Made by a program: the position numbers and the translations under genes. This document shows positions 23,096 to 53,722 of a DNA stretch of 64,000 nucleotides, piece by piece. Location of the stretch: NCBI RefSeq assembly GCF_024436375.1, contig NZ_JAFMZM010000001.1, positions 806,001-870,000 on the forward strand. Direction: 5' to 3'. The stretch is from Nocardioides astragali (GTDB lineage: Bacteria > Actinomycetota > Actinomycetes > Propionibacteriales > Nocardioidaceae). Position 1 is the stretch's first letter, and each line of letters starts with the position of its first letter. The notes beneath the pieces are model-generated. The model worked only from the letters and a program-made list of their open reading frames with translations. It was not told the DNA's origin and ran no database searches.

Positions 23096-23105
23096 GTGTT
23101 CGTCC

Positions 23106-24641: not shown

Positions 24642-24653
24642 CTTGTGGGGTTG

Positions 24654-24683
24654 AGAGTGGCGCTGAGGCGTTGCCCGTGTCAA
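24654..24683 (-). promoter_or_regulatory. betB promoter core
   Basis: TTGACA (24678-24683) and CACTCT (24654-24659) on the minus strand with an 18-bp spacer. Same architecture as the purU and folD promoters. Confidence 0.58.
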
Positions 24684-25701: not shown

Positions 25702-25731
25702 TTGACACGCATCGTCTCTGCCTCGCAGACT
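25702..25731 (+). promoter_or_regulatory. folD promoter core
   Basis: TTGACA (25702-25707), an 18-bp spacer and CAGACT (25726-25731). Almost identical layout to the purU promoter (TTGACC, 18 bp, CAGGCT), including the distance to the operator that follows. Confidence 0.62.
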
Positions 25732-25732
25732 G

Positions 25733-25766
25733 TTGCGTATCATGCATGTAGTTGTGTAATCCGCAC
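25733..25766 (+). promoter_or_regulatory. Tandem IclR-type operator upstream of folD
   Basis: TTGCGTATCATGCAT (25733-25747) and TTGTGTAATCCGCAC (25752-25766) are 19 bp apart start to start and begin one base after the -10. The first nine bases (GTTGCGTAT from 25732) and the GTTGTGTA of the second copy are identical to the purU operator. Confidence 0.8.
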
Positions 25767-26705: not shown

Positions 26706-27581
26706 ATGCTCACCCCTGCCCGCACCGCGGCACTGCGGCGACTGCTCTCCCACGTCCGCTACGAGGTGCTCCCCACGTCGAGGATCGAGGAGATCGTCGC
26801 GACGAACCTCCCGTCCGGAAGCACCGTGACGGTGACCGCCTCCCCCTCGAAGGGACTGGAGGCGACCGTCGCGCTGGCCGAACGGCTCGCCGCTCGTGGG
26901 TACGACGTGGTCCCGCACCTCGCTGCGCGGATGATCTCCGGCCGGACCGAGCTGGCAGAGATCAGCGACCGCCTGCGCCGGGTCGGCGTGACGACCGTCT
27001 TCGTGCCGGGTGGAGACGCGGACCCGGTCGGCGCCTACGTGGGGGCGATGGACCTGCTCGACGACCTCGCTGCGCTCGACAACCCCTTCGCCCAGGTCGG
27101 GATCACCGGCTATCCCGAGTCCCATCCGACCATCCATGACGACATCACCGTCCAGACGATGTGGGACAAGCGGCGTCACGCGACCCAGGTCGTGAGCAAC
27201 CTGACCTTCGACCCCAACGTCCTCGGCGGGTGGGTCCGCCGGGTCCGCGCGCGCGGCGTGACCACCCCGATCCTCGTCGGCCTCCCCGGGCCCGTCGACC
27301 GGGCCAAGCTCCTGACGATGGCGACCAAGATCGGGGTGGGGGAGTCGACGAGGTTCCTCGCCAAGAACCGTGGCGTCTTCGCGCGGATCGCGGTCCCGGG
27401 TGGCTACGACCCGATGCGCCTGCTGACCCGCGCGGCCGGCGTCCTGGGCAGCGAGGAGATGAACGTCAGCGGGCTGCACCTCTTCACCTTCAACCAGGTG
27501 GCCGAGACCGAGACGTGGCGTCGCGACCAGCTCGCCAGGCTCGGCGCGGATGTGGCCGAGCTCGGACGGAGCGCCCGGTGA
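26706..27581 (+). CDS. metF: Methylenetetrahydrofolate reductase family protein
   Basis: A 291-residue TIM-barrel protein of the MetF family: VTVTASPSKGLEATVALAER near the start, VPGGDADPVGAY, VGITGYPESHPTI, and the late segments NLTFDPNVLGGWV and EEMNVSGLHLFTFNQVAET. It would reduce 5,10-methylene-THF to 5-methyl-THF. The sequence diverges from standard MetF, so in a catabolic C1 operon it could also work in the oxidative direction or on a related folate; that is inference. It starts 9 bp after folD and its stop overlaps folC by 4 bp (GTGA). Confidence 0.78.
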   Translation: MLTPARTAALRRLLSHVRYEVLPTSRIEEIVATNLPSGSTVTVTASPSKGLEATVALAERLAARGYDVVPHLAARMISGRTELAEISDRLRRVGVTTVFVPGGDADPVGAYVGAMDLLDDLAALDNPFAQVGITGYPESHPTIHDDITVQTMWDKRRHATQVVSNLTFDPNVLGGWVRRVRARGVTTPILVGLPGPVDRAKLLTMATKIGVGESTRFLAKNRGVFARIAVPGGYDPMRLLTRAAGVLGSEEMNVSGLHLFTFNQVAETETWRRDQLARLGADVAELGRSAR

Positions 27582-29713: not shown

Positions 29714-29746
29714 TGCTGTCAACGCAATTGAGTGCAGATTACGCAA
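29713..29746 (+). promoter_or_regulatory. Tandem IclR-type operator upstream of the dmg operon
   Basis: TTGCTGTCAACGCAA (29713-29727, perfect TTGC-N7-GCAA) and GTGCAGATTACGCAA (29732-29746) are 19 bp apart start to start. They end 2 bp before the AGGAGG ribosome-binding site of the first gene. Confidence 0.8.
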
Positions 29747-29760
29747 CAGGAGGAAGTCGC

Positions 29761-32251: not shown

Positions 32252-33571
32252 GTGAGTTTCAAGACCGCCCCCGCGGCCAACATGGCCGAGATCGCCGCCA
32301 TGGTCGAGCGCCGCGAGGTGGGCTACAGCCTCGAGTCCGCCTTCTACGCCAGCCAGGAGGTCTACGACCTCGACATCAAGGCGATCTTCGGCCAGCACTG
32401 GATCTTCGTCGCCTCCGAGGCCGAGATCCCCGAGCCGGGTGACTTCGTCACGATCGAGATCGACACCCAGTCGCTGATCATCACCCGTGACGACGACGAG
32501 CAGATCCGCGCGATCCGCAACGTCTGCCGTCACCGCGGCTCTCGCCTCCTGGAGGACCCGTGCGGCTCGATCGGCAACATCGTGTGCCCCTACCACCAGT
32601 GGACCTACCGCGCCGACGGTGAGCTCATGTACGCCGAGAGCCAGTCGCCGTCGTTCGACAAGTCGAAGTTCAACCTGAAGCAGGTCCACGTCCGCACCGT
32701 CGGCGGCCTGATTTTCATTTGCCTCGCCGACGAGGCGCCGGCCGACTTCGACGAGGTCGCCTCGGTCATCGAGCCCTACCTGCGCTCCTACCGCATCTCG
32801 GAGGCGAAGGTCGCCCACCAGACCGACCTCGTCGAGGAGGGCAATTGGAAGCTCGTGATGGAGAACAACCGCGAGTGCCACCACTGCGATGCGTCGCACC
32901 CGGAGCTGATCACCTCCTACTTCCCCTTCCTCCGCTACTCCGAGGAGGACGTCACCCCCCGCATGCGGCCGACCTACGAGCGCTATCTCGCCGCCACGGC
33001 CAACCTGGACAACGTCTGCTCGATCAACGGGGTCCCGCGCGAGCTTCGCCACGAGCTCGACACGCGCCCGACCGGCTTCATGATCATGCGCCTCCCGCTG
33101 GACGGCGACGGGGCGTCCTTCGGCCCCGACGGAGCCCAGGTGTGCCGCAAGCTCATCGGCGACGTCACCACCCCCCAGTTCGGCGACCTCTCCCTGCACA
33201 TGCAGCCCAACTCGTGGTTCCACTTCCTCAGCGACCACGTGATCGTCTTCACCGTCCTGCCGATCGGTCCGGACAGGTCCCTGGTCCGCACGACCTGGCT
33301 GGTCCACCCGGACGCCGTGGAGGGCGAGGACTACACCATCGAGGGGCTGACCGGCGTCTGGAAGGCCACCAACGACCAGGACCGCGTGCTGGTCGAGAAG
33401 GCCCAGCGCGGAGTCACGGACCCGAGCTACGTGCCCGGTCCCTACGCACTGGTCGAGGACGACGTCGAGTCGTTCATCAACTGGTACGTCCGCCGCCTCC
33501 ACGACTACCTCGAGCCGCACCGCGAGAGCGCCGAGCGGCTCGGTCATCTCAACGCGGTCGCGGCCCAGTAG
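32252..33571 (+). CDS. gbcA: Glycine betaine monooxygenase, Rieske oxygenase subunit
   Basis: A 439-residue Rieske non-heme iron oxygenase. The [2Fe-2S] ligands are Cys92/His94 (NVCRHRGSRL) and Cys112/His115 (IVCPYHQWTY). The catalytic iron site is in the stretch ENNRECHHCDASHPEL around residues 205-220. Length and motifs fit GbcA, which demethylates glycine betaine to dimethylglycine and formaldehyde. The neighbouring reductase and the following dimethylglycine and sarcosine genes support that substrate. The GTG at 32252 has GGAGG 6 nt upstream. Choline- or carnitine-type substrates are less likely in this context. Confidence 0.92.
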   Translation: MSFKTAPAANMAEIAAMVERREVGYSLESAFYASQEVYDLDIKAIFGQHWIFVASEAEIPEPGDFVTIEIDTQSLIITRDDDEQIRAIRNVCRHRGSRLLEDPCGSIGNIVCPYHQWTYRADGELMYAESQSPSFDKSKFNLKQVHVRTVGGLIFICLADEAPADFDEVASVIEPYLRSYRISEAKVAHQTDLVEEGNWKLVMENNRECHHCDASHPELITSYFPFLRYSEEDVTPRMRPTYERYLAATANLDNVCSINGVPRELRHELDTRPTGFMIMRLPLDGDGASFGPDGAQVCRKLIGDVTTPQFGDLSLHMQPNSWFHFLSDHVIVFTVLPIGPDRSLVRTTWLVHPDAVEGEDYTIEGLTGVWKATNDQDRVLVEKAQRGVTDPSYVPGPYALVEDDVESFINWYVRRLHDYLEPHRESAERLGHLNAVAAQ

Positions 33572-33596: not shown

Positions 33597-34739
33597 ATGT
33601 CGTCCATCCAGGCACCTCAGCGCCTCGTGCCGTCCCTGCAGTCGCCCGTCTGCTGGACGGAGGAGGACCAGGCCGTGCTGGTGTGCACCGCGGTCAGCGA
33701 CGTCACCCACGACGTCAAGAACTTCGTGTTCGAGCCCGAGGGCGACCAGGTCTTCGACTTCGAGGCCGGTCAGTTCCTGACCCTGATGCTCGACATCGAC
33801 GGCTACCCGGTGAACCGCTGCTACACGATCTCCTCGCCTCCGACGCGCCCCCACCGCCTTGCCATCACCGTCAAGCGTGTCCTGGGTGGCGCGGTGTCCA
33901 ACTGGGTCCACGACAACATCGTGCCCGGCAGCAAGGTCAACGCGATGGCGCCGCTGGGTGCCTTCACGCTCGCCAAGCAGCCGGCGGAGAAGTATCTCTT
34001 CCTGTCGGCCGGCAGCGGGATCACCCCGCTCATGTCCATGCTGCGCACGATGTACGACCTGGGGTCGCACGCCGACGTGGTCTTCCTCCACAGCGCGCGC
34101 ACGCCGAGCGACATCGTGTTCCGTCACGAGCTCGCGGCCATCGAGACGCTCATGCCCAACCTCCGCGTGGTGCACGTCTGCGAGAACGACTACCCCTCGG
34201 AGCGCTGGGGTGGCATGCGTGGGCGCCTCTCGCCCACCATGCTCCACACGATCGTCCCCGACCTGCACGAGCGGGTCACCTTCAACTGCGGTCCGGTGCC
34301 CTACATGGAAGCCGTGCGCCGCATCCTCGGCGAGCTGGACTACGACCTCGGCAGCTACCACGAGGAGAGCTTCACCTTCGACGACCCGGCCCAGCCGGGC
34401 GCGACGCCGCCGCCGGAGGGAGTCGCGTACGACGAGATCGCCGTCGCTCCGCCGCCCGCCGGTGACGACGGGGTGGCGACGTACTCCGTCGAGTTCACCA
34501 AGAGCGGGCGCACGATCACGTGTCGCGCCGACCAGTTCGTCCTGGACGCGGCCCTCGCCGCCGGCGTACGCCTCGCGTCGTCCTGCAGCCAGGGCATGTG
34601 CGGCACCTGCAAGCTCCCCAAGCTGTCCGGCGAGGTGGAGATGAACCACAACGGCGGCATCCGCCCGCGCGAGGTCGCCGCCGGAAAGATCCTCGCGTGC
34701 AGCTCCAAGCCACTCAGCGACCTCTCGCTCGACGCCTGA
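33597..34739 (+). CDS. gbcB: Glycine betaine monooxygenase, ferredoxin reductase subunit
   Basis: A 380-residue electron-transfer protein: FAD domain (FDFEAGQFLTLMLDIDGYPV, RCYTISSPP), NAD(P) domain (YLFLSAGSGITPLMSML, FNCGPVPYMEAV) and a C-terminal plant-type [2Fe-2S] ferredoxin with Cys330, Cys335, Cys338 (CSQGMCGTC) and Cys368. It passes electrons from NAD(P)H to the Rieske subunit encoded just upstream. An acidic/Pro-rich linker (residues ~265-300) joins reductase and ferredoxin. It starts 25 bp after gbcA with GGAGAAG before the ATG. Confidence 0.92.
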   Translation: MSSIQAPQRLVPSLQSPVCWTEEDQAVLVCTAVSDVTHDVKNFVFEPEGDQVFDFEAGQFLTLMLDIDGYPVNRCYTISSPPTRPHRLAITVKRVLGGAVSNWVHDNIVPGSKVNAMAPLGAFTLAKQPAEKYLFLSAGSGITPLMSMLRTMYDLGSHADVVFLHSARTPSDIVFRHELAAIETLMPNLRVVHVCENDYPSERWGGMRGRLSPTMLHTIVPDLHERVTFNCGPVPYMEAVRRILGELDYDLGSYHEESFTFDDPAQPGATPPPEGVAYDEIAVAPPPAGDDGVATYSVEFTKSGRTITCRADQFVLDAALAAGVRLASSCSQGMCGTCKLPKLSGEVEMNHNGGIRPREVAAGKILACSSKPLSDLSLDA

Positions 34740-34790: not shown

Positions 34791-36005
34791 ATGGCTGACA
34801 ACCGAGTCGTCGTCTACGCGGGACCTGGAGAGGTCGCGATCGAGACCATCGAGTTCCCCAAGCTGGAGATCCCACGTGAGGTCGCCGAGGGGCTCGGCAT
34901 CAAGCAGGCCGCCCCGCACGCGGTGATCCTCAAGCTCGTCACGACCAACATCTGCGGCAGCGACCAGCACATGGTCCGTGGCCGGACGACGGCGCCCGTG
35001 GGCCAGTCCCTGGGCCACGAGATCACCGGCGAGATCGTCGAGATCGGCGACGACGTCCTCTTCCACGAGGTCGGCGACATCTGCTCGGTGCCGTTCAACA
35101 TCGCGTGTGGTCGCTGCCGGATGTGCAACGAGGGCAAGACCGGCATCTGCCTCAACGTGAACCCGGCGCGTGCCGGCGCGGCCTACGGCTACGTCGACAT
35201 GGGCGGGTGGGTCGGCGGCCAGGCGGAGTACGTGATGATCCCGTTCGCCGACTTCAACCTGCTGAAGTTCCCCGACCGCGACGCGGCGCTGGAGAAGATC
35301 CTCGACCTCACGATGCTCTCCGACATCTTCCCGACCGGCTACCACGGCGCCTACACCGCCGGCGTGACCACGGGCTCGACGGTGTACGTCGCCGGTGCCG
35401 GCCCGGTGGGCCTCGCCGCGGCGTACTCGGCGCAGCTCCTGGGTGCCTCGACCGTCATCGTCGGCGACATGAACGCCGACCGCCTCGCGCAGGCCGCCAG
35501 CTTCGGCTGCGAGGTCGCGGACCTGTCGAAGGGTGACTCGCTGGTGGACATCGTCGCCGACATCCTCGGCGAGCCGGAGGTCGACGCGGCTGTCGACGCC
35601 GTCGGCTTCGAGGCGCGCGGCCACGGCAAGGACGCCGCCGAGGCGCCCGCCACGGTGCTCAACGACATCATGAACATCTCGCGTGCCGGCGCCTCCCTCG
35701 GCATCCCCGGCCTCTACGTGACCGGCGACCCGGGCGCGGTGGACGACGCCGCGAAGGTGGGCCAGATCGGCGTGCGGCTCGGCCTCGGTTGGGCGAAGTC
35801 CCACACCTTCGTCACCGGCCAGTGCCCCGTGAAGAAGTACAACCGCCAGCTGATGAACCTGATCCTGGCCGACAAGGCGCACATCGCGAAGGCCGTGAAC
35901 GCCACCGCGATCAGCCTCGACGACGCCGCTCTCGGCTACGCCGCGTTCGACAAGGGCGCCGCCCAGAAGTTCGTCATCGACCCCCACGGCATGGTCGGGG
36001 CCTGA
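34791..36005 (+). CDS. fdhA: Glutathione-independent (NAD) formaldehyde dehydrogenase
   Basis: A 404-residue zinc dehydrogenase matching the Pseudomonas putida FdhA type: catalytic zinc Cys55 in [29 protein letters not shown], structural zinc cysteines in [15 protein letters not shown], the insertion [24 protein letters not shown] motif [17 protein letters not shown] and [11 protein letters not shown]. Such enzymes oxidise, or dismutate, free formaldehyde to formate with tightly bound NAD. Here it follows the betaine demethylase that makes formaldehyde. GGAG lies 6 nt before the ATG. With MscR this is a second formaldehyde route in the same regulon. Confidence 0.92.
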
Positions 36006-36009: not shown

Positions 36010-37320
36010 ATGAGTGATGTCATGACCTCACAGATGTCCGTCCTCGACCGCACCCTCGCCGACTTCGACCCCGAGGTCGCCGAGCAGATCGAGCGCGAGC
36101 TGGTCCGCCAGCAGACGACGCTCGAGATGATCGCCTCGGAGAACTTCGCTCCGAGGTCGGTCATGGAGGCCCAGGGCTCCGTCCTGACCAACAAGTACGC
36201 CGAGGGCTACCCCGGCCGCCGCTACTACGGCGGCTGCGAGCACGTCGACGTCGTCGAGCAGCTCGCGATCGACCGGATCAAGGCGCTCTTCGGTGCCGAG
36301 GCCGCCAACGTCCAGCCCCACTCGGGCGCCCAGGCCAACGCTGCCGCGATGTTCGCCGTGCTCAACCCGGGCGACACCATCCTCGGCCTGGACCTGGCCC
36401 ACGGCGGTCACCTGACCCACGGCATGCGGATCAACTTCTCCGGCAAGCTCTACGACGTCGTGGCCTACCAGGTCTCGCCGGACGACTTCCGCATCGACAT
36501 GGCCGAGGTCGAGCGCCTCGCCGTCGAGCACAAGCCCAAGCTGATCATCGCCGGCTGGTCGGCCTACCCGCGTCAGCTGGACTTCGCGGAGTTCCGGCGG
36601 ATCGCCGACAAGGTCGGCGCCTACCTGATGGTGGACATGGCCCACTTCGCCGGCCTGGTGGCCACCGGCCTCCACCCGAGCCCGGTGCCGTACGCCGACA
36701 TCGTCACCACCACCACGCACAAGACCCTCGGCGGTCCGCGCGGCGGCGTCATCCTCTCGAAGGAGTCGCTGGCGAAGAAGATCAACTCGGCCGTCTTCCC
36801 CGGTCAGCAGGGTGGTCCGCTCGAGCACGTGATCGCCGCCAAGGCGGTGGCCTTCAAGATGGCCGCCGAGCCGGCGTTCAAGGACCGTCAGGAGCGCACC
36901 CTCGAGGGCGCGCGGATCATCGCCGAGCGGCTCTCGCAGCCCGACCTCGCCGAGGCGGGCATCTCGGTGCTCTCCGGCGGCACCGACGTGCACCTGGTGC
37001 TGGTCGACCTGCGCCACTCCGAGCTCGACGGCCAGCAGGGCGAGGACCGGCTGCACGCCGTGGGCATCACCGTGAACCGCAACGCCGTGCCGTTCGACCC
37101 GCGTCCGCCGATGGTCTCCTCGGGACTGCGGATCGGTACGCCGGCGCTCGCGACCCGTGGGTTCGACGCGGTCGCCTTCACCGAGGTTGCGGAGATCATC
37201 GCGGCCGCGCTGACGGGCGAGGGGGAGGCCGAGCAGCTCGCCGAGCTCCGCGGCCGCGTCGAGGCCCTCGCCGACAAGTTCCCCCTCTACCCGCCTCAGT
37301 TCGACAGCCAGGAGCGCTGA
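36010..37320 (+). CDS. glyA: Serine hydroxymethyltransferase
   Basis: A 436-residue PLP enzyme: [66 protein letters not shown] and the PLP-binding Lys238 in [14 protein letters not shown]. It joins the glycine left from sarcosine with methylene-THF to give serine. Being in a sarcosine operon it is likely a dedicated catabolic copy. The ATG at 36010 is 4 bp after fdhA; ATGs at 36022 and 36034 are alternatives (the last, [11 protein letters not shown], matches the usual length). Its stop overlaps the soxB start as TGATG. Confidence 0.95.
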
Positions 37321-38540
37321 TGTCCCACGGTATGCCCGGCGAGCACCCCGAGTGGCTCTGGCGGGACCCCGACCCGAAGTCGTCCTACGACGCGGTGGTC
37401 ATCGGCGGCGGTGGCCACGGCCTCGCCACGGCGTACTACCTCGCCAAGAACCACGGCATGACCAACATCGCCATCCTGGAGAAGGGGTGGCTGGCCGGCG
37501 GCAACATGGCCCGCAACACCACGATCATCCGCTCGAACTACCTCTGGGACGAGTCCGCGGCGATCTACGAGCACGCGCTGAAGCTGTGGGAGGAGCTCCC
37601 CGAGGAGCTCGACTACGACTTCCTCTTCAGCCAGCGCGGCGTGCTCAACCTGGCGCACTCCCTCGGCGACGTCCGCGACTCCGTGCGCCGCGTCGAGGCC
37701 AACCGCCTCAACGGTGTCGACGCGGAGTGGCTCACCGCCGAGGAGGTGGCCAAGGTCTGCCCGATCATCAACATCTCCGAGGACGTGCGCTACCCGGTCC
37801 TCGGTGCGACCTTCCAACCGCGCGCCGGCATCGCCAAGCACGACCACGTGGCGTGGGCGTTCGCCCGGGCATGCGACGCGATGGGCGTCGACATCATCCA
37901 GAACTGCGAGGTCACCGGCTTCGTCAAGGACGGCAACCGGGTCACCGGTGTCGAGACCACCCGCGGCCGGATCCTCTCCGACACCGTCGGCATGGTCGCG
38001 GCGGGCCACTCCAGCGTGCTCGCCGAGAAGGCCGGCTTCCGGCTGCCGGTGCAGTCCCACCCGCTGCAGGCGCTGGTCTCCGAGCTCTACGAGCCGGTCC
38101 ACCCGACCGTCGTGATGTCCAACTACGTCCACGTCTACGTCTCGCAGGCGCACAAGGGCGAGCTGGTCATGGGCGCCGGGATCGACCAGTACAACGGCTA
38201 CGGCCAGCGCGGTTCGTTCCACGTGATCGAGCACCAGATGGCCGCGGCGCTGGAGCTCTTCCCGATCTTCGGCCGGGCGCACCTGCTGCGCACCTGGGGC
38301 GGCATCGTCGACGTCTGCCCGGACGCATCGCCGATCATCGGCGCGACTCCGGTCGACGGCCTCTACGTCAACGCCGGCTGGGGCACGGGTGGCTTCAAGG
38401 CCACTCCCGCGGCCGGCTGGGCGATGGCCCACACCATGGCCACCGGTGAGTCGCACGAGCTCAACAAGCCCTTCGGGCTGGAGCGCTTCACCACCGGCCA
38501 CCTCATCGACGAGCACGGCGCCGCCGGCGTCGCGCACTGA
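37320..38540 (+). CDS. soxB: Sarcosine oxidase, beta subunit
   Basis: A 406-residue FAD subunit of the heterotetrameric enzyme: [20 protein letters not shown] for FAD binding, [15 protein letters not shown] near the flavin (covalent FMN His region), [20 protein letters not shown] and a terminal [18 protein letters not shown]. Sarcosine oxidase demethylates sarcosine to glycine and yields H2O2 and methylene-THF. Starts within TGATG at the glyA stop. Gene order soxB-D-A-G is canonical. Confidence 0.96.
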
Positions 38541-38571: not shown

Positions 38572-38886
38572 ATGTTGCAGATCGAGTGCCCGTGGTGCGG
38601 ACTGCGGGACGAGACCGAGTACCACTACGGCGGCCAGGCGCACGTCGCCTACCCCGAGGACCCGAGCGCGCTGAGCGACGAGGAGTGGGCCGAGTACCTC
38701 TTCTTCCGCGACAACCCCAAGGGTCCCTTCGCCGAGCGCTGGGTGCACAGCGGCGGCTGCCGCAAGTGGTTCAACGCCGTGCGCGACACCCGGACGTACG
38801 AGTTCCTCGCGGTCTACACGAGCAACGACCCCCGGCCCGACATCAGCAGCCTGGCCAGCGCCGACACCGCAGGAGCAACGGCATGA
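38572..38886 (+). CDS. soxD: Sarcosine oxidase, delta subunit
   Basis: A 104-residue small subunit with the zinc-binding CPWCG (residues 6-10) and the later SGGCRKWF cysteine, as in known SoxD. Strong ribosome-binding site GAAGGAG before the ATG. The stop overlaps the soxA start (ATGA). Confidence 0.95.
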
Positions 38887-41789
38887 GCAGCCCCCAGACC
38901 CCACGGCGCAGTCACCGCCTGCCCGCGGGCGGCTGCATCGACCGTGACACGGTGCTGACCTTCACCGTCGACGGCGAGCAGCTCACCGGTCACCCCGGCG
39001 ACACCATCGCCTCGGCCCTGATCGCCAACGGGCGGGTCCGGGGCGGTGACTCGATCTACCGCGGCCGCCCCCGCGGCATCCTGGCGGCCGGTGGCGAGGA
39101 GCCCAACGCGTTGGTCCAGATCCTCGGCGAGCACTCCGAGCCGTCGGTCACCGCGACCGTCCGCTCGCTCACCGACGGCCTGAAGGCGAAGACGCTGTCC
39201 GGCTTGGGAGTCCTGGACCCCGAGCCCGACACTGCGGCGTACGACAAGCTGTTCGTGCACACCGACGTGCTGGTCGTCGGCGCCGGCCCCTCGGGCCTCG
39301 CCGCTGCCCTGTCGGCCGCGCGCTCCGGCGCCCGCGTCATCCTCCTCGACGAGCAGGCCGAGCTCGGTGGCTCGCTGCTGGGCAGCCGCACCGAGCTGGT
39401 CGACGGCACGCCGGCGACCGAGTGGGTCGCCCAGGCGGCCGCGACGCTCGCCGCGGCCGAGGAGGTCACGGTGCTCACCCGCACGGCCGCCTTCGGTTCG
39501 TACGACGACAACTACGTGCTCGCCGTCGAGGACCGGGCCGGCGGCTCGTCCGCCCCCCAGCCGGACGGCTTCTCGCGCCAGCGGGTCTGGCACATCCGTG
39601 CGGCCCAGGTGATCCTGGCCAACGGCGCCTACGAGCGCCCGCTGGTCTTCGCCGGCAACGACGTCCCCGGCGTCATGCTCGCCGGTGCCGTGCGCACCTA
39701 CCTCAACCGCTACGCCGTGACGCCCGGTCGCCGCTTTGTGGTCGCCACCACCAACGACAGCGCGTACGACGTGGTCGAGGACATCCTCGCCGCCGGTCTC
39801 GAGGTGGCCGCCGTGCTCGACGCCCGGGGCAGCCTGTCGGTCCGCGCGACCGAGGTCGCCGCGGCGGGGGTCCGGGTCCTCTCCGGCACGACCGTCGAGC
39901 GGGCCGAGGCCGACAGTGGGACTGCGCTCCTGACGCGGGTCCACGCCGCGTCGATCGCCGACGACGACACCGTCACGCCGCTCGAGACCATCGACGCCGA
40001 CGTGCTCGCGGTCTCCGGTGGCTGGAGCCCGCTGGTGCACCTGCACACGCAACGCCAAGGCACCACGACGTACGACGCGTCGCTGGTCGCCTTCGTGCCA
40101 GGGAGCAAGGTCAAGGACCAGACCGTCGTCGGCGCCAACAACGGCACCTTCCTCCTCGGCGACGCCCTCGCCGAGGGCACGTCGGCAGGCGCCGCCGCGG
40201 CAACCACGGCCGGTTTCCCGGTCGAGGCCACCACGGCGCCTGCTGCCGCGGGCACGGCCACCGAGGTCGGCGAGGTCCGCGCACTGTGGCTGGTGCCCGC
40301 CGCCGAGGGTGAGCCGGGGGAGTGGGACGAGCACTTCGTCGACCTGCACCGCGACCAGAGCGTCGCCGACGTCTGGCGCGCGACCGGTGCCGGCATGCGC
40401 AGCATCGAGCACGTCAAGCGCTACACCTCGATCGGCACCGGCCAGGACCAGGGCAAGACGTCCGGCGTCAACGCCGGTGGCGTGATCGCCGCGGCACTCG
40501 GGCTCGACGTCGCCGAGGTCGGCTTCAGCAACCACCGCGCGCCGTACACGCCTGTGCTCTTCGCGGCGCTGGCCGGCCGGGAGCGGGGTGAGCTGTTCGA
40601 CCCCAAGCGGATCACCCCGATCCACGGCTGGCACGTCGAGCACGGTGCCGAGTTCGAGGTCGTCGGCCAATGGCTGCGTCCGTGGTACTTCCCCCGGGAC
40701 GGCGAGGACCTCGACGCCGCGGTGGAGCGGGAGTGCCGTGCGGTGCGCACCAGCGTCGGCATGATGGACGCCTCGACGCTCGGCAAGATCGAGATCAAGG
40801 GCGCCGACGCAGGCGAGTTCCTCAACCGGATCTACACCAACGCCTACAAGAAGCTGGCGATCGGCTCGGCTCGCTACGGCGTGATGTGCAAGCCCGACGG
40901 CATGATGTTCGACGACGGCGTGACGCTGCGCGTGACCGAGGACAGCTACTACATGCACACCACCACTGGTGGCGCTGCCGGCGTGCTGGACTGGCTGGAG
41001 GAGTGGCTGCAGACCGAGTGGCCCGAGCTCGACGTCTACTGCACCTCGGTCACCGAGCAGTGGTCGACGGTGGCAGTGGTCGGCCCGAAGTCACGCGAGG
41101 TCGTCGCGAAGATGGCTCCCGGCCTCGACGTCTCCAACGACGCCTTCGGCTTCATGACCTTCCAGGAGACGACGCTGGCCTCGGGCATCCCCGCCCGGAT
41201 CTGCCGGATCTCCTTCTCCGGCGAGCTCGCCTTCGAGATCAACGTCTCGGGTTGGTACGGCCGCCGGGTCTGGGAGGACGTCGTCGCCGCCGGCGCCGAG
41301 TTCGGCATCACGCCGTACGGCACCGAGACGATGCACGTGCTGCGTGCCGAGAAGGGCTACCCGATCGTCGGCCAGGACACGGACGGCACCGTCACGCCGC
41401 AGGACGCCGGCATGGACTGGATCGTGTCGAAGACGAAGGACTTCGTCGGCAAGCGCTCCTACACGCGTGCAGACAACATGCGGCCCGACCGCAAGCAGAT
41501 GGTCGGCCTGCTGCCCGTCGACCGCACGACACGGCTGCCCGAGGGCAGCCAGGTCATCGAGGCCGGTCCGGCGCTGTCCGAGCGTCCCAAGCCGGTGCCG
41601 ATGCTGGGCCACGTGACGTCGAGCTACGACAGCGTGGCGCTGGGGCGGCCGTTCGCGCTCGCCCTGATCAAGGGTGGTCGCGACCGCATCGGTGAGGTGC
41701 TGCTGGCGCCCGTCGGCGACCGCCTGGTCGAGGTCGAAGTGACCTCGTCCGTTCTCTACGACCCGGAAGGGACCAGGCGCGATGGCTGA
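38883..41789 (+). CDS. soxA: Sarcosine oxidase, alpha subunit
   Basis: A 968-residue subunit. The N-terminal domain resembles a 2Fe-2S-ferredoxin fold ([20 protein letters not shown]), the middle is an NAD-binding pyridine-nucleotide disulfide-type domain ([20 protein letters not shown]), and the C-terminal ~400 residues are a GcvT/folate-binding domain ([39 protein letters not shown]). The alpha subunit binds THF so formaldehyde is trapped as methylene-THF. The start is ATG 38883 overlapping soxD; the end overlaps soxG by 8 bp. Confidence 0.96.
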
Positions 41790-42420
41790 CCTGACCACGC
41801 TGCAAGGCCTCCGACGCAGCCCGCTCCACGACATGGCTGCCGAGCTCCGCGGCGGCCCCGTTCCCGGGGAGCGCGCGGTGCGGCTGCTCGAATGGCCGTA
41901 CCTCACGATGGTGAGCCTCCGCGTCGAGCCGGGCTCCGACACCGCTCGGCGGATCGAGGGGGTCCTCGGCACGGGCCTCCCGGAGCGGTGCGGCGACGTG
42001 ACGGGCGAGGGTGCCCACTCGGTGCTCTGGCTCGGGCCCGACGAGTGGCTCGTCGTCTCGCAGACGGCACCCGAGTCCCTGGTGGCCTCGCTGCGGTCGG
42101 CGACAGTGGACGGACGCGCCCAGGTCGTCGACATCTCCGCGAACCGTACGGTCATCGAGGTCTCCGGCCGGGCGGCCCGCGCGGTCCTCGACAAGGGCTG
42201 CCCGGCCGACCTGCACCCACGGGCCTTCGCCGACAACACCGCGATCACCACCTCGCTGGCCCGGGTGCCCGTCCTGCTGTGGAAGATCGACGCGCACACG
42301 TTCCGCGTCATGCCTCGGGCATCCCTCGCGCAGTACGTCGCGGCCTGGCTGCTCGACGCCGCGCTGGAGTTCGCCTCCCCGCTGCCGGCCGGCCAGGCGC
42401 CTGCCGCAGAGGGAGCCTGA
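41782..42420 (+). CDS. soxG: Sarcosine oxidase, gamma subunit
   Basis: A 212-residue subunit with [13 protein letters not shown] near the start, [10 protein letters not shown] and the conserved [15 protein letters not shown] and [17 protein letters not shown], as in SoxG. Structural part of the heterotetramer. It overlaps soxA by 8 bp and the sdaA start by one base (TGATG). Confidence 0.93.
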
Positions 42421-43790
42421 TGGCGCTCTCCGCCTTCGACCTCTACTCGGTCGGCATCGGGCCGTCGTCGTCGCACACGGTCGGTCCGATGCGCGCGGCG
42501 AGGCTGTTCGTCGAGGGGCTCGAGAAGTCGGGCCGGCTCGGCGACGTACGCCGCGTGCGCGCCGAGCTCTTCGGCTCGCTGGGCGCCACCGGACACGGCC
42601 ACGGCTCGCCCAAGGCCGTCGTGCTCGGGCTCGAGGGCGAGGACCCGGCGACCACCGACACCGACCGCGCCGAGGCACGGATCGACGAGATCCGACGCTC
42701 CGGTGAGCTCGTGCTCAACGGCACGACACCGGTCCGCTTCGACGTCGACAGCGACCTGGTCATGCACCGGCGCAAGAGCCTGCCCGCACACCCCAACGGG
42801 ATGACCTTCGCGGCGTTCGACGGGGACGACACGGAGATCCAGTTCCGCACCTACTACTCGGTCGGCGGCGGGTTCGTCGTCGACGAGGTGGCGACCGGAG
42901 CCGATCGCGTCGTCGTCGACGACACCGAGGTGAAGTTCCCCTTCAGCACCGGCCAGGAGCTGCTGGCCATCTGCGAGCGCGAGCAGATGTCGATCAGCGA
43001 CGTCATGCTCGCCAACGAGCAGGCCTGGCGATCCGAGGAGGAGATTCGCGCGGGGATGCTGCACCTGTGGTCGGTGATGGCCGAGTGCATCGAGCGCGGC
43101 TTCCACCGCGAAGGCGTCCTCCCCGGCGGCCTCAAGGTGCCGCGCCGGGCTCCCGGGCTCTTCCGCGAGCTGTCGGGCAAGAGCGAGGTGGACCCGCTCC
43201 ACGTCATCGACTGGGTGAATCTCTACGCCCTGGCGGTCAACGAGGAGAACGCGTCCGGCGGCCGCGTCGTGACCGCGCCGACCAACGGCGCGGCGGGCAT
43301 CATCCCGGCGGTCCTGCACTACTACGTGCGGTTCGTACCGGGAGCCGACGACGACGGGATCGTGCGCTTCCTCCTCACTGCCGCGGCGATCGGGATCCTG
43401 TTCAAGATGAACGCCTCGATCTCGGGTGCTGAGGTCGGCTGCCAGGGCGAGGTCGGCTCGGCCTGCTCGATGGCCTCAGGCGGTCTGGCCGAGGTCATGG
43501 GCGGTACGCCGCCCCAGGTCGAGAACGCCGCCGAGATCGGCATCGAGCACAACCTCGGCCTCACCTGCGACCCGGTCGGCGGACTCGTGCAGATCCCGTG
43601 CATCGAGCGCAACGCGATCGCCTCGATCAAGGCGATCAACGCGGCCCGTCTCGCCATCATCGGCGACGGCACGCACAAGGTCAGCCTCGACAAGGCGATC
43701 AAGACCATGCGCGAGACCGGGGCGGACATGAAGACGAAGTACAAGGAGACCGCCCGCGGCGGTCTGGCCGTCAACGTCATCGAGTGCTGA
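42420..43790 (+). CDS. sdaA: L-serine ammonia-lyase (iron-sulfur type)
   Basis: A 456-residue one-chain L-serine dehydratase: [19 protein letters not shown] at the N-terminus (beta domain), then the alpha domain with [19 protein letters not shown] and the [4Fe-4S] cysteines in [24 protein letters not shown] and QIPCIERNA. It deaminates serine to pyruvate and ammonium, the last carbon step of betaine breakdown. It begins within TGATG at the soxG stop and ends in the same way at fdhF. Confidence 0.95.
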
Positions 43791-46111
43791 TGGCTGTCGA
43801 CGACACGGACGGCAACGGGACCGGCTACACGGGCGACGACAGCAGGCTGCTCGGCACCGCGGACGAGACCGACCTCGCTGTCGAGCATCCGCACGACCAT
43901 GCAGCGGGACTCCCCGCCGTCACGGTCGCCATGAAGCGCGCGCTGAGCCAGATGGGACCGAGCCGCACAGCGCGGACGCTGCTGCGCCTCAACCAGGCCG
44001 ACGGCTTCGACTGCATGAGCTGCGCGTGGCCCGACCCGGACCCCGAGCACCGGCACCGTGCGGAGTTCTGCGAGAACGGTGCGAAGGCGGTGGCCGAGGA
44101 GGCGACGAAGGTCCGGGCGACGCCGGAGTTCTTCGCCCGGCACACCATCAGTGACCTGCTGCAGCAGACCGACCACTGGCTCGGCCAGCAAGGCCGCCTG
44201 ACCCACCCGATGGTCAAGCGCCCCGACTCCGAGCACTACGAGCCGATCGACTGGGACGACGCGTTCGCCCTCGTCGGCGACCACCTGCGGCAGCTGGCGT
44301 CGCCGGACGAGGCGCTCTTCTACACCTCGGGCCGCGCCTCCAACGAGGCTGCCTTCGTCTACCAGCTGTTCGTGCGCGAGCTCGGGACCAACAACCTGCC
44401 CGACTGCTCCAACATGTGCCACGAGTCGAGTGGCGTCGCCATGATCGACACGATCGGCATCGGCAAGGGCAGCGTGAGCCTGGAGGACCTCTACCGGGCG
44501 GACCTCATCGTGCTCGCCGGACAGAACCCCGGGACCAACCACCCGCGGATGCTCTCGGCGCTCGAGATCGCGAAGCGGCGCGGTGCCCGCATCATCTCGA
44601 TCAACCCGTTGCGCGAGGCCGGGCTGGTGAACTTCCGCAACCCGCAGTACCCCCGCGGCGTCGTGGGCGCGGGGACCGACCTCAGCGACCTCCACCTGCA
44701 GATCCGGCTCAACGGCGACCTCGCGCTCTTCCAGGCCATCGGGTGCCTCCTGGTCGAGTGGGACGCGGTCGACGCCGACTTCGTCTCGGGCTACACCGAG
44801 GGCTTCGGCGAGTGGCGCGACCACGTCCTCGGCGTGGACTGGGACCAGGTGCTCGCCGCGACCGGGCTCTCGCGTGAGCAGATCACCGAGACGGCGAGGA
44901 TGATCGCCGACTCCGACGCCACGATCTACTGCTGGGCGATGGGGCTGACCCAGCACCGCAATTCGGTGGCCACCATCAAGGAGGTCATCAACGTCGCGCT
45001 CGCGCGTGGCGACATCGGCAAGCCAGGGGCGGGCCTGTGCCCGGTCCGCGGCCACTCGAACGTCCAGGGCGACCGCACCATGGGCATCTGGGAGAAGCCG
45101 CCGCCGGCGTTCCTGGACGCGCTCGAGGCGGCGTACGGCTTCGAGCCACCGCGCCACCACGGCTTCGACGTCGTGGAGTCCATCCACGCCATGCTCGAGG
45201 CCAAGGCGGCGGTGTTCGTGGCGCTGGGGGGCAACTTCCTGCATGCCGCACCCGACACCGCCCTGACTGCAGCGGCCCTGGAGAAGACGGCGCTGACCGT
45301 GCAGATCTCCACGAAGCTGAACCGCTCGCACCTGATCACCGGTCGCACCGCGCTGATCCTGCCCACCCTCGGGCGCACCGAGCGCGACGACCAGGCGACC
45401 GGACCGCAGTTCATCACCGTCGAGGACTCGATGTCGGTGGTGCACGCCTCCCGCGGCCGGCTCGACCCGGCCAGCGAGCACCTCCGGTCCGAGGTCGCGA
45501 TCGTCACCCGCATCGCCGAGGCCGCCCTGGGCGACCGGTCGGTCGTGGACTGGGCAGCGCTCCGGTCCGACTACCGGCTGATCCGTGCCGGGATCGAGCG
45601 CGTCGTGCCCGGGTTCGTCGACTTCGAGCGGCGGGTGGTCGAGCGGAGCGGGTTCGTGCTGCCGCATCCTCCCCGCGACACCCGCAGCTTCCACACGCCC
45701 TCCGGCCGGGCGCAGTTCACCGCCTCGCCGATCGAGACGATCGAGGTGCCACCAGGTCACCTGGTGCTGCAGACCCTGCGCAGCCACGACCAGTTCAACA
45801 CCACCATCTACGGCCTGAGCGACCGCTACCGAGGCATCGAGGGCGGTCGTCTCGTGGTGATGGTCAACCGCCGCGACCTGAAGGCGATGGGCCTGCGCGA
45901 CGGCGACCGGGTCGACATCGTCAGCTGCTGGGAGGACGGCCGGGACCGCCGCGTACGCAACTTCCGCGTCGTCGAGTACGACACCCCGGTCGGCACCGCC
46001 GCGGCCTACTATCCCGAGACCAACCCCCTCGTGCCGCTGGGCTCTGCCGCCGAGGGCAGCAACACCCCGACCTCGAAGTCGGTCGTGGTCCGGCTCGAGC
46101 CGGTCGGCTGA
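43790..46111 (+). CDS. FdhF/YdeP-family molybdopterin oxidoreductase, probable formate dehydrogenase
   Basis: A 773-residue molybdopterin enzyme. Cys75, Cys78 and Cys94 (DCMSCAWP and FCENG) are likely cluster ligands near the N-terminus. [13 protein letters not shown] puts Cys210 as molybdenum ligand followed by His211, the pair typical of formate dehydrogenases; there is no selenocysteine codon. Later come [53 protein letters not shown] and the C-terminal molybdopterin-binding barrel. The FdhF/YdeP family is mostly uncharacterised; formate oxidation is inferred from the pathway context and from FdhD in the same regulon. Starts in TGATG at the sdaA stop. Last gene of the dmg operon. Confidence 0.85.
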
Positions 46112-46169: not shown

Positions 46170-46200
46170 CTCCGGCCGTGCGCGATGCGCACGGCCGGAG
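46170..46200. terminator. Bidirectional terminator between fdhF and betT
   Basis: Perfect 14-bp GC-rich stem (46170-46183 and 46187-46200) with loop GAT. Read from betT it is followed by TTTTGTGTG, a good intrinsic terminator. It also lies 58 bp after the fdhF stop on the other strand. Confidence 0.85.
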
Positions 46201-48065: not shown

Positions 48066-48099
48066 TTGTGACAGACGCAACAGACTGCTCAGCATGCAA
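48066..48099 (-). promoter_or_regulatory. Tandem IclR-type operator and promoter upstream of betT
   Basis: Minus strand: TTGCATGCTGAGCAG (48085-48099) and TTGCGTCTGTCACAA (48066-48080), 19 bp apart start to start. The second copy begins with TTGCGT, which with TATCGT (17-bp spacer, downstream) forms a possible -35/-10, so the operator overlaps the promoter from the upstream side. A longer outer dyad CCTTTGTTG / CAACAAAGG (48060-48068 and 48097-48105) encloses both copies. Confidence 0.72.
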
Positions 48100-50251: not shown

Positions 50252-50389
50252 GGTGGGTCCTTCGTCGGGGTCGACCGATCCTGTTGATCGGGACGTGTCC
50301 CCAGCGTCGGAGCCGCCGCTTACCGGCGCCTTGCCATTCCCTTGCCGTCCGTCGCGATCCGTCCCTTGCGATCCGTCCCGCGCGCGGGC

Positions 50390-53300
50390 TCAGTCAGTCG
50401 CGTCGAGCGCCGCGAGCCGCTGCCGGGCGATGCGCTCCCAGCGAAGGCAGCCGACACGGGCGTTCTCCACGACGGCGCGCTCGAGCACCGCGCGGCCCTC
50501 GTCGAGCCGGCCGAGCGCCACCAGCCCACTTCCCAGGAAGCAGGCGACGCTGCCGAGGGACTGCACGCTCCCGTACGTCGCGACGGCGCCGGTGAACGGT
50601 CGGAGCCGGTCGACCGCTGCGGCCAGGTCGGGGTGCCGCGCGGCCGCCATGACGTCGACGGTGAGGCAGGCGGCGAAGAGACCGGCGTAGTCCCCACCCA
50701 CCTCCGTGGGCGTGCCGAGGAGCCTGACGCCCGCATCCACCTCGCCCGCCGCGCAGAGCGCACTCGCCACCGCGGTCCGGAAAGCCAGGTAGGGGTGGCT
50801 GATCGCCGAGGCGACGATGTCCGGCGGGACTGGCGCTCCCTGCGGAGCGCTGACGATCGTGTAGAGCCCGGTCAGCTCGGGCAGGCCCACGACTGTGGTG
50901 CGACGGTGCAGCGCGAGGGTCTCGCGACCGATGCGGACCGCGTCCGGGTCCTCCGACTCCACGGCACGCATCCATCGCCACCAGCCCAGCGGCACGTCGG
51001 AGCCCGTGTGCCCGAGCCGGGCGGCCAGCTCCAGCACCGGAGCCATCTCCCGGTCGGCCTCCAGCGCCTTCCCCTGGTGGTGGAGCGCGGTCGCCAGCTG
51101 GAACCGCGCGGCCATGACGTACTCGTCGGTGTCGGCGACCTCCAGGGACTCCCGTGCACAGACCTCGCGCTCCTGTGCCTTGCCCGGCGCCCACAGCGCG
51201 ACCTCCCGCGCCGCCAGGCAGTCGCGAAGCACCTGCCGATCGCCGCTGGCGCGAGCCAGCTCGATCGAGCTCCTCCCACACCGGTCGCCCTCGTCGTGGC
51301 GCCAGGCGATGTAGTGCTCGAGGCCGAGGTTGGCCCAGACGCGCGCCCGCAGCCCGGCGTCCTCGACGTGCTCGAGGCACAGCTCGAGGACCTCGACGGC
51401 GTGCGGGTCCTCACTGCCCATCTCGCGCCAGTGCCACACGCCGGAGCTGCGGAAGCTGGTGGCGGCCTCGGCCATCCGGGTGTAGTCGTCCCGCTCGCGC
51501 GCCAGCCGGATCGCCTCGTCGAGCGTCGCGAGCATGCCGTGGAGGTCGCCCAGGCGTTGCCGTGCGGTCGACAACGACAGCAGCAGCCCGTGCCTCCGCA
51601 CCGGGTCGGGGTCCGGGATCTCCCGCTCGACCTCGACGGTGCGCGTCCAGAGGGTCAGTGCCTCGGCGAAGGCTCCCCGCGCCTCCGCCGCCTTGGCCGC
51701 CCGGCGACCGAAGTCGACGGCACCCTCCGCGAGCTCCGGGAGGTAGGGCGCGGCGAGCGTGTGGTGGTGCGCGACCTCGCCGACCAGGTCGGGGTCCCGG
51801 GCCAGCCGTTCGCCCAGGGCTCGCCCGACCTGGGCGTGCCAGCGCGCTCTCCGCCCCAGCGGGAGGTCGCCGTACACGGTCTCGCGGGTGAGAGCGTGCA
51901 CGAAGCGGAGCTGCCCGACCACGCCGGTCTCCTCCACGATCCCGGCCGCGACCGCCTCGTCGAGGTCGTCGAGGACCGCCTCGCCGAGCGCCGCCGTCAG
52001 CAACCGCGTGTCGAACGTCCGCCCGACGACCGAGGCCACCGAGAGCGCGGTGCGGGTCGGCTCGGCCAGCTGGAGGACTCGCATCCGCAGCACGTCGGCG
52101 ATGCCGTCAGGCACCTCCAGGTGCTCGGCGGCCTCCGCCGTCGCCCGGCCGCTGGCGGCCAGCAGCCGAGCCATCTCGAGCACGAAGAAGGGGTTGCCGT
52201 CGGTCCGACGGGTGAGGACCTCGACCAAGGCGGGATCGGCGTCGACCAGCACGTCCTCGAGCAGCGCGGCGACCGCCTCGTCGCTCAGTGGAGGCACGGG
52301 CACCCGGCGTGCCTCGAGGCGGGAGAGCCCGGCGAGCGCGTGGGCGAGCACCGGGTGGCGGCGCGGGTCGACGGTGCGCACGGTGGCCACGAAGAGCACG
52401 GGACGTCCGCGCAGCTCCTCGGCGGCGTACGCCAGCAGCCGCAGCGACGTGTGGTCGGCCCAGTGCAGGTCCTCCAGCAGCACGACCAGGGGCCGGGACC
52501 CGCTGCCGAGCAGCCGGGAGACCGCGGCGAACGTCCGCAGCGTGGTGGCCGCGGCGGCGCCCGCATCGGTCGCGCTCGCCCCCTGGGTCCCGCCCCCGAG
52601 CAGCGCCCGCACCTCGTCGGGCACGGCATCCTCGGTGTCGGCGAGGTCGCGCAGCACGGGGAGCCACGGCCAGTACGGCGGCGCCAGGTCGGCCTCGTGG
52701 CACCGGCCGACCACGACCCGAGCCCCGCGGTTCGCGGCCCGGTGAGCCGCCTCGCTGGCGAGCATGGTCTTGCCGATCCCGGCGTCCCCGGTGATCAGCA
52801 ACAGGCCGCCGCGGTGCTGGTCGACCAGGTCGGTGAGCACGGCGTCGATGACCGCCAGGGCCTCGCTGCGACCGACGACCCCGGACACCCGGGCGCGGGT
52901 GGCGTCCGCGTCGGGGGTCATCGGCGGCCGTGCGTCGAGGGCGGGGTCGTGGGCGAGCATCTGCCCCTCGAGCGTGCGCACCGAGGCGGACGGGTCCACA
53001 CCGAGCTCCTCGACCAGGGCCGTTCGCAACGTGCGCAGCGTCTCGAGGGCGTCGGCCTGGCGCTGGCTGCGGTAGAGGGCGAGCGCGAGCAACGACCACA
53101 ACCGCTCCCGGAACGGGTGGTCGCCGACCACGCCCGCCAGCAGGCGGTGCGCCTCCTCCGGTCGGCCGAGGGCCAGGAACGCCTCGGCCCGGCTCTCCAC
53201 CAGGGTCAGCCTGGCCTCCTCGAGGCGGACCGTCTCGGCTGCGAGCGTGGGCGCGTTGCCGAGACCGGCGAACGGCTCACCCCGCCAGAGGCCGAGCACA

Positions 53301-53662
53301 CCGGCCGTCGCGTCGAGGACCTCCGCCGGCTCCAGGCCGGCGAGCCGCTCGGTGAGCCCGGCGACGGTGACGGCGTCGACGTCCGCGCCGACGAGGGTGT
53401 AGCCCGAAGGATCACGGCGCACCTCGGCGTGCTCGCCGAGGACGCGGCGGAGCCGGGAGACCGCGACCTGCAGCGAGTTGGCCGCAGCGGCAGGCGGCTC
53501 CTCGCCCCAGAGCTCGTCGACCAGCCGGTCGTCGCTGACGTGTCGTCCCACGGCGGTCGCGAGCAGTGCCAGCAGCACGCGCTCACGCCGACCGCCGACG
53601 GTGCGCTCCTCGTCGCCGACCCGGAGGCGCAGCGGACCGAGCACGTCGATCGCGACGGTCAT
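50390..53662 (-). CDS. AfsR/SARP-type regulator: winged helix, BTAD, NTPase and TPR-like region
   Basis: A 1090-residue multidomain regulator. N-terminal OmpR-like winged helix (residues ~1-95: AIDVLGPLRLRVGDEERTVG, HVSDDRLVDELWGEEPP, LQVAVSRLRRVLGE), BTAD helical domain (~95-245), then an AAA/STAND ATPase with Walker A LITGDAGIGKT (Lys298) and LLEDLHWADHTSLRLLAYAA, and a C-terminal half of TPR-like helices that usually bind ligand or partner. It probably activates nearby genes; the flavoenzyme and secreted-protein genes downstream are the natural targets. The ATG at 53662 has GGAGGAGGG 5 nt before it. Confidence 0.92.
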   Translation of the reverse strand: MTVAIDVLGPLRLRVGDEERTVGGRRERVLLALLATAVGRHVSDDRLVDELWGEEPPAAAANSLQVAVSRLRRVLGEHAEVRRDPSGYTLVGADVDAVTVAGLTERLAGLEPAEVLDATAGVLGLWRGEPFAGLGNAPTLAAETVRLEEARLTLVESRAEAFLALGRPEEAHRLLAGVVGDHPFRERLWSLLALALYRSQRQADALETLRTLRTALVEELGVDPSASVRTLEGQMLAHDPALDARPPMTPDADATRARVSGVVGRSEALAVIDAVLTDLVDQHRGGLLLITGDAGIGKTMLASEAAHRAANRGARVVVGRCHEADLAPPYWPWLPVLRDLADTEDAVPDEVRALLGGGTQGASATDAGAAAATTLRTFAAVSRLLGSGSRPLVVLLEDLHWADHTSLRLLAYAAEELRGRPVLFVATVRTVDPRRHPVLAHALAGLSRLEARRVPVPPLSDEAVAALLEDVLVDADPALVEVLTRRTDGNPFFVLEMARLLAASGRATAEAAEHLEVPDGIADVLRMRVLQLAEPTRTALSVASVVGRTFDTRLLTAALGEAVLDDLDEAVAAGIVEETGVVGQLRFVHALTRETVYGDLPLGRRARWHAQVGRALGERLARDPDLVGEVAHHHTLAAPYLPELAEGAVDFGRRAAKAAEARGAFAEALTLWTRTVEVEREIPDPDPVRRHGLLLSLSTARQRLGDLHGMLATLDEAIRLARERDDYTRMAEAATSFRSSGVWHWREMGSEDPHAVEVLELCLEHVEDAGLRARVWANLGLEHYIAWRHDEGDRCGRSSIELARASGDRQVLRDCLAAREVALWAPGKAQEREVCARESLEVADTDEYVMAARFQLATALHHQGKALEADREMAPVLELAARLGHTGSDVPLGWWRWMRAVESEDPDAVRIGRETLALHRRTTVVGLPELTGLYTIVSAPQGAPVPPDIVASAISHPYLAFRTAVASALCAAGEVDAGVRLLGTPTEVGGDYAGLFAACLTVDVMAAARHPDLAAAVDRLRPFTGAVATYGSVQSLGSVACFLGSGLVALGRLDEGRAVLERAVVENARVGCLRWERIARQRLAALDATD

Positions 53663-53722
53663 GGAGCCCTCCTCCCCCAGGTGCACGCAGCATAAGGGCG
53701 CCACGGCGACCCGGCGGCGAGG

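Follow-up and report, generated by a model that had tools for sequence, protein, structure and literature searches.

Nocardioides astragali, a choline- and betaine-using actinobacterium, appears to oxidise the methyl groups that it removes to CO2, and the enzyme that ends this methyl-group oxidation is most likely (probability about 0.85, judged from sequence) a formate dehydrogenase (FDH) of the FdhF/YdeP family, encoded at positions 43790-46111 of a 64-kb stretch of the genome (contig NZ_JAFMZM010000001.1, positions 806,001 to 870,000, hereafter the window). Observed were the family membership of this gene (hereafter the FDH gene), its place in the gene order, a shared promoter motif, repeated linkage to betaine clusters in other genomes, and the finding of neither another type of FDH nor a formate-tetrahydrofolate (THF) ligase in the genome; from these we infer the substrate, direction, cofactor, cluster type, solubility and electron acceptor of the product, as well as the co-regulation of its gene. 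A preliminary description of the window had proposed the same function, which stands as the best reading, with independent support now provided by linkage to the sarcosine oxidase gene soxB in other genomes. Known relatives already lead one to expect such a function; this analysis adds that linkage to betaine clusters recurs and that a promoter motif is shared.

Family membership and signature residues

The coordinates and frame given in the preliminary description were right: the gene opens with an ATG at 43790, its stop codon ends at 46111, and 773 aa are encoded. The product scores 961.3 bits with TIGR01701 (FdhF/YdeP; cut-off 582), covering positions 2-743 of the 744 in the model, and 271 bits with the classical Fdh-alpha model TIGR01591, under the cut-off of 666. 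When PDB sequences were searched with a profile of the product, all 11 matches at E<=1e-30 were formate dehydrogenases; a single-sequence search at E<=0.001 returned 41 matches, nitrate reductases and others included. The best PDB sequence match was Escherichia coli FdhF (FDH-H; 25% identity over the aligned part), and no solved structure of the FdhF/YdeP family itself was found among the PDB matches. An AlphaFold2 model (40 sequences; mean predicted local distance difference test score 89, predicted template modelling score 0.90) had MeFDH1 and FdhH as its top Foldseek matches, and the sequence profile discriminates better than fold comparison.

Within the motif NMCHESSG, C210-H211 aligns with U140-H141, the selenocysteine-histidine pair of E. 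coli FdhF, and R420-G421 aligns with the Arg-Gly in PVRGQNNVQG of that enzyme, whereas in the control, NasC of the same genome, the corresponding residues are C-M and T-G. E. coli FdhF, which has a four-Cys cluster and a role in formate hydrogenlyase, uses selenocysteine where the window enzyme has Cys210. The Cys-His pair of formate dehydrogenases to which attention had been drawn is therefore present, but it is not distinctive: nine residues (C75, C78, C94, K99, C206, C210, H211, R420, and G421) do not vary in any of the 116 aligned family members, E. coli YdeP included, and thus mark the family as FDH-like without being able to separate its members. C75, C78, and C94 are predicted to form an Fe-S site, and C210 and H211 to serve as metal ligand and base. 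The N-terminus follows the pattern C-x2-C-x3-[DE]-x11-C, in which residue 82 (87 of the 116 members have Asp there and 29 have Glu) occupies what we take to be the place of the third of the four cluster cysteines in classical enzymes. With three invariant cysteines, the product departs from the four-Cys N-terminal [4Fe-4S] site of classical Fdh-alpha enzymes, and no Pfam Fe4S4 domain was recognised in it at E<=0.001. Three invariant cysteines together with an always-acidic residue suggest an unusual Fe-S site with a predicted ligand set, and the replacement of one cluster cysteine by an acidic residue is a specific biochemical prediction.

The betaine operon and its pathway

The FDH gene ends a betaine operon that starts at 29761 and has gaps of at most 52 bases between genes (Table 1). 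The sdaA stop codon TGA (43788-43790) and the FDH ATG (43790-43792) overlap by one base (TGATG), an arrangement also found at the soxG-sdaA junction at 42420; a longer mechanically called open reading frame (ORF; 41892-43790) was rejected as the start of sdaA. The coupling that had been described earlier is thereby confirmed, and an sdaA-FDH overlap is kept in the nearest relative, locus L074 (86% identity; FDH gene 8731-11034, SdaA 11028-12401, both on the minus strand), which has the same order from the formaldehyde dehydrogenase gene through the FDH gene. After the FDH gene, a terminator scan by the T-run rule returned none, the strong hairpin there being without a T run; beyond the hairpin lies a convergent gene for a BCCT transporter, the start codon of which was taken near 48012.

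In agreement with the earlier statement that there is no NADH or quinone partner subunit, none (NADH-binding or Fe-S, of the FdsABG type) was found in the operon or directly downstream. Neighbours of related genes (frames of at least 45 aa within 2.5 kb) were clustered as well, and a conserved small partner subunit is unsupported: the clusters present in at least four families overlap FdhD, GbcA-like, MscR, or BCCT genes, two unexplained clusters comprise three families each at three to four loci, and the small ORFs next to the copies in R. etli and Rhodococcus gave either no Pfam hit or one to ThiS that falls short of the cut-off.

In the proposed pathway, choline would be converted to betaine by BetAB, the first betaine demethylation would be carried out by the GbcAB-like Rieske enzyme, and the dimethylglycine dehydrogenase-like protein and sarcosine oxidase would release one-carbon (C1) units as formaldehyde or methylene-THF. 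The glutathione-independent dehydrogenase and MscR would then turn formaldehyde into formate, and methylene-THF would be converted via FolD to 10-formyl-THF, from which PurU would free formate; with formaldehyde dehydrogenases and FolD-PurU, the window encodes two routes to formate. The enzyme at the end is pictured as a soluble, single-subunit formate dehydrogenase of the FdhF/YdeP family with a bis(molybdopterin guanine dinucleotide) molybdenum cofactor that FdhD would sulfurate; formate would be oxidised to CO2 at the molybdenum site (C210 as ligand, H211, and R420), and electrons would leave via an Fe-S cluster near the N-terminus, held by C75, C78, C94, and a non-Cys ligand as the fourth, perhaps acidic residue 82. 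Such systems would lend themselves to a test of the electron acceptor, given that betaine should govern expression and that the other steps of the pathway are known.

Only one PurU match above the cut-off, the window copy, occurs in the genome, and no match to formate-THF ligase was found there (5.17 Mb, 16 contigs, 99.16% complete). Formate is re-used through that ligase in established one-carbon biochemistry; formate from PurU would hence have no way back through the ligase, and oxidation or loss must be its fate. A PF00384 search of the genome returned seven places, two of them members of the FdhF/YdeP family, the others being a NasC-like protein (733 bits, cut-off 1100) that adjoins a NirB-like frame, TorA/BisC-like and Phs-like proteins, and two proteins named by length and place only (NarG-type and NuoG-type). 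For metal-free NAD-dependent enzymes, there were 15 PF02826 matches, of which the top four were scanned: PGDH, a pair of 2-hydroxyacid dehydrogenases, and a protein resembling adenosylhomocysteinase. With NF005750 (cut-off 329), the first three of these scored 149, 124, and 75 bits. An unrelated formate dehydrogenase elsewhere in the genome, for which the preliminary description had left room, was thus sought and not found by the PF00384 survey and the NF005750 scores. Apart from the window enzyme, the one FDH-type protein found was a paralogue at C13:29003 (65% identity), which belongs to another clade; a second FdhD of the genome lies on contig C9.

The motif ACGCAACAG has exactly four copies in the window, each upstream of a betaine or C1 unit; the mean in shuffled sequence was 0.35 and none of 100 shuffles reached four, a test that is indicative only since the motif was picked after the promoters had been read. 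Preceded by W and with one mismatch allowed, the motif shows a weak excess (5 versus 2.6; 13 of 100 shuffles reach 5), and the related 9-mer WACGCAACA occurs once across five other genomic stretches totalling 94 kb and is absent from L074. The IclR-type protein is an obvious candidate for a regulator acting through this motif. As for the claim that FdhD is in the same regulon, fdhD does lie in the window, 29 kb away and on the opposite strand, and its co-regulation with the FDH gene is supported by the motif though not proved.

The one betaine gene set holds two formaldehyde dehydrogenase types, mycothiol-dependent and glutathione-independent. Between folD and folC, the plus strand (26706-27581) encodes an MTHFR-domain protein (PF02219, 36.5 bits; no NCBIfam match at E<=1e-15) that is possibly a catabolic variant. 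At 50342-53704, long ORFs occupy both strands (1117 and 1104 aa), the plus-strand ORF having no Pfam match.

Table 1. Features of the window, in order of position.
Feature	Position	Strand	Remarks
fdhD	~13536-14378	-	sulfurtransferase for formate dehydrogenases; last of purU unit; start estimated
MBL-fold hydrolase frame	14380-15012	-	flanked by mscR and fdhD; approximate ends; identified by eye, THAHDDH motif
mscR	15009-16178	-	S-(hydroxymethyl)mycothiol dehydrogenase; mechanically called ORF; TIGR03451 683 bits, cut-off 513
purU	16129-17022	-	10-formyl-THF hydrolase, releases formate
ACGCAACAG	17033-17041	+	upstream of purU-mscR-MBL-fdhD unit
betA	21395-23299	-	choline to betaine; mechanically called ORF
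betB-like	23106-24683	-	choline to betaine; mechanically called ORF; BADH 612 bits, cut-off 669
IclR-type regulator	24797-25600		
ACGCAACAG	25730-25738	-	between iclR and folD
folD	25827-26696	+	methylene-THF to 10-formyl-THF
ACGCAACAG	29741-29749	+	upstream of betaine operon ending in FDH gene
Dimethylglycine dehydrogenase-like	29761-32199	+	first operon gene; DAO and GCV_T domains; no NCBIfam equivalog cut-off reached
gbcA-like Rieske oxygenase	32252-33571	+	best NCBIfam model GbcA, 424 bits, cut-off 670
gbcB-like ferredoxin reductase	33597-34739	+	best NCBIfam model GbcB, 337 bits, cut-off 500
Glutathione-independent formaldehyde dehydrogenase	34791-36005	+	formate source; TIGR02819, 700 bits, cut-off 637
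glyA	36010-37320	+	serine hydroxymethyltransferase
soxB	37320-38540	+	sarcosine oxidase beta
soxD	38572-38886	+	sarcosine oxidase delta; 31 bases after soxB
soxA	38883-41789	+	sarcosine oxidase alpha
soxG	41782-42420	+	sarcosine oxidase gamma; TIGR01375 142.0 bits, cut-off 143.95; Pfam SoxG over cut-off
sdaA	42420-43790	+	L-serine ammonia-lyase; one base in common with soxG and one with FDH gene
FDH gene	43790-46111	+	FdhF/YdeP-family molybdopterin oxidoreductase; proposed formate dehydrogenase
GC-rich hairpin	~46170-46200	.	3' of FDH gene; z -6.2
ACGCAACAG	48075-48083	+	upstream of BCCT transporter
Choline ABC transporter genes		-	in window

Recurrence in betaine clusters of other genomes

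Linkage between the FDH gene and soxB was assessed in a class sample of 394 genomes, in which both genes were called at E<=1e-150. There, soxB was found in 44 genomes, the FDH gene in 192, and both in 30; at least 10 of these 30 carry the two within 20 kb of each other (G000, G220, G605, G661, G695, G708, G738, G762, G830, and G873, the last in L172), against 0.25 expected from random placement. The corresponding P is ~3e-14 if genomes were independent; the ten represent about three or four lineages, and four by chance would still have a P of ~1e-4. Presence of the two genes is likewise associated in the class (30/44 versus 162/350, Fisher p 0.007, kinship ignored). With matches in nearly half of the class sample, this FDH branch is widespread and little studied, and the linkage points to a physiological source of formate for it.

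Gene orders differ among the linked clusters. Those of L155, L156, and L158 read mscR-gbcA-like-FDH-iclR-(purU)-dimethylglycine dehydrogenase-glyA-soxBA, those of L157 and L159 gbcA-like-FDH-iclR-betA-dimethylglycine dehydrogenase-soxBAG, those of L160 and L161 dimethylglycine dehydrogenase-gbcA-like-BCCT-FDH-soxBAG-sdaA-purU, and that of L172 soxBAG-iclR-purU-gbcA-like-FDH; L162/L163 is a 39-kb stretch with the FDH gene near one end. Betaine-type clusters also occur at two of 80 named loci (the best 80 among the matches listed, not selected by soxB): Lentzea albidocapillata subsp. violacea (L206) carries the full cluster, soxB included, and BCCT, mscR, gbcA-like, betA, and purU genes are present in Streptomyces muensis (L211). 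FdhD is encoded within the stretch at 32 of these 80 loci, at 18 of 80 family loci (stretches hand-chosen among the places found, some of which end at contig ends), and at 10 of 20 class loci (L175-L194).

Phylogenetic trees require at least three changes in the state of linkage. In a FastTree analysis of 116 rows, the betaine label needs four changes, at least three of them forced by starred branches, and in a quick IQ-TREE analysis of 43 chosen rows it needs three, all three forced; label changes of this kind do not separate gain from loss. A single betaine-specific clade for the linked genes was rejected, as holding all linked rows together cost 426 log units (approximately unbiased test, p 1.8e-6), and a constraint that joined the window type to the L160/L161/L206 type cost 277 log units (p 8e-39), in a test that was not blind, the groups having been seen in the tree beforehand. 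L172 was omitted from the tree tests because its gene is split in translation. The FdhF/YdeP branch entered betaine clusters more than once. The nearest unlinked relative, at L075 (9012-17697), is accompanied by CoA-transferase A and B, GcvT-like, PurU, FolD, MscR, and MBL hydrolase genes, a cassette that is, judged by its genes, another methyl-oxidation (demethylation) set with the same ending.

Known relatives and alternative explanations

The view that the family is largely uncharacterised is out of date, since members have been characterised (PMC10308882, PMC3720670). In Pseudomonas putida, PP_0256 and PP_4596 are FdhF/YdeP-family proteins described as soluble; PP_0256 shares a transcript with fdhD (PP_0257), and deletion lowers formate tolerance, which PP_0256-57 restores (PMC10308882); compared by description, they belong to the same family as the window enzyme, and the passages cited describe no betaine operon there. 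Methylobacterium extorquens Fdh4A, for which formate oxidation is reported, stands at 59% to PP_0256/PP_4596 and 48% to YdeP (cited in PMC10308882, PMC3720670); it has a linked Fdh4B, whereas no such partner was found for the window enzyme. E. coli YdeP has been linked to acid resistance (PMC10308882, PMC3720670) and, in the passages cited, suggested to oxidise formate (PMC3720670); ydeP adjoins ydeO and safA with no C1 gene annotated beside it, whereas the window gene ends a betaine operon. Corynebacterium glutamicum FdhF (cg0618) is an actinobacterial formate dehydrogenase for which one source states that the electron acceptor is not yet established (PMC4609165) and another speaks of NAD dependence, with formate tolerance as the reported phenotype (PMC10313556); that genome matches the window protein, TIGR01701 membership being unconfirmed. 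The sarcosine-to-pyruvate plan of the window recurs in Arthrobacter and Corynebacterium sp. U-96 (glyA-soxBDAG-sdaA-purU) and in a Colwellia betaine island that adds fdhGBAD (PMC3534580, PMC3691474); both sources describe clusters containing purU, and fdhGBAD is in that of PMC3691474; the Colwellia formate dehydrogenase is of the FdhGBAD rather than the FdhF/YdeP type, and the Arthrobacter passages name none. Literature searches, covering mainly titles, listed none that concerned an FdhF/YdeP-family gene in a betaine operon of actinobacteria.

Several observations weigh against the proposed reading. E. coli YdeP, known for acid resistance, shares all nine signature residues with the window enzyme, and fold alone is undecisive because formate dehydrogenase ForCE1 (8rqz; Z 37.6, 622 aligned, 2.7 A) and nitrate reductase 2nap (Z 37.6, 627 aligned, 2.4 A) tie in VIA-align. 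Across a phylum sample of 396 genomes (FDH gene at E<=1e-100, soxB at E<=1e-80), the FDH gene occurs in 37, soxB in 52, and both in 8, all within the window's own class; none of the 44 soxB genomes outside the class has the FDH gene, which is therefore no general companion phylum-wide. In a family sample of 198 genomes (FDH gene at E<=1e-100, soxB at E<=1e-150), the counts are 121, 12, and 7, with the two genes within 20 kb in 2 (G000 and G186), and presence is not associated (7/12 versus 114/186, Fisher p 1.0). Within the class, 14 of the 44 soxB genomes have no FDH match at E<=1e-150, and the other 20 of the 30 genomes with both genes have none within 20 kb among the matches listed; three of those 20 (G814, G832, and G890) have no place among the matches listed, nor does G730, the soxB stretch of which (L164) is without an FDH gene. 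Linkage to soxB is also rare at loci not chosen for it, with one of the 80 family loci and one of the 80 named loci. Finally, the paralogue on C13 could share or take over the role.

The likeliest rival to an energy-yielding formate dehydrogenase keeps the activity and changes its purpose: the main task would be protection against formate or acid, as for YdeP, and the operon would give only co-expression. This remains a tentative alternative, somewhat unlikely yet of real weight, in that formate tolerance is the phenotype in P. putida and C. glutamicum (PMC10308882, PMC10313556, in the passages cited) and the search for an energy-conserving partner subunit next to the gene found none; nevertheless, flux rather than defence alone is indicated by the translational coupling to a catabolic operon and by the recurrent association with betaine clusters, and defence and flux are not mutually exclusive. 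It is improbable that the C13 paralogue is instead the working formate dehydrogenase, with the operon copy redundant or devoted to another substrate. The paralogue does have all of the same signature residues and sits in a clade to which the same genus contributes many rows, but the 20-kb stretch around it has no match for the 21 other window proteins used as queries, its downstream neighbours encode a DNA glycosylase and an amidase, and it is the operon copy that has purU, mscR, and fdhD in its gene set and whose nearest relative, L074, keeps the order from formaldehyde dehydrogenase to FDH.

Action on another one-carbon or formyl compound, or reduction of CO2 to formate, is scarcely credible: nitrate reductases share the fold and the PDB matches include no structure of the family, yet the FDH-type C-H and R-G residues, the FDH-only profile matches at E<=1e-30, and the presence of purU and fdhD in the gene set all speak for formate oxidation. 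A highly speculative extension, which would be a long shot, is that in actinobacterial betaine clusters the repeatedly recruited FdhF/YdeP module returns methyl electrons to the Rieske demethylase via a shared ferredoxin, a loop through which demethylation would pay for its own reductant.

A GbcA-like Rieske oxygenase (26-28% to the window GbcA) is encoded beside or near the FDH gene in L155-L161, L172, and L206, and directly precedes it in L155-L159 (family code f90) and L172 (f3). No GbcB-like reductase was found in these stretches at E<=0.01; GbcB-like genes were seen in two of the 21 stretches tested, L167 and L168, neither of which has a linked FDH gene. At nine further loci (L204, L207, L217, L224, L225, L227, L238, L249, and L190), an opposite-strand folC-like gene lies within 10 kb of an FDH-fdhD pair, which may be either a second folate link or chance gene order.

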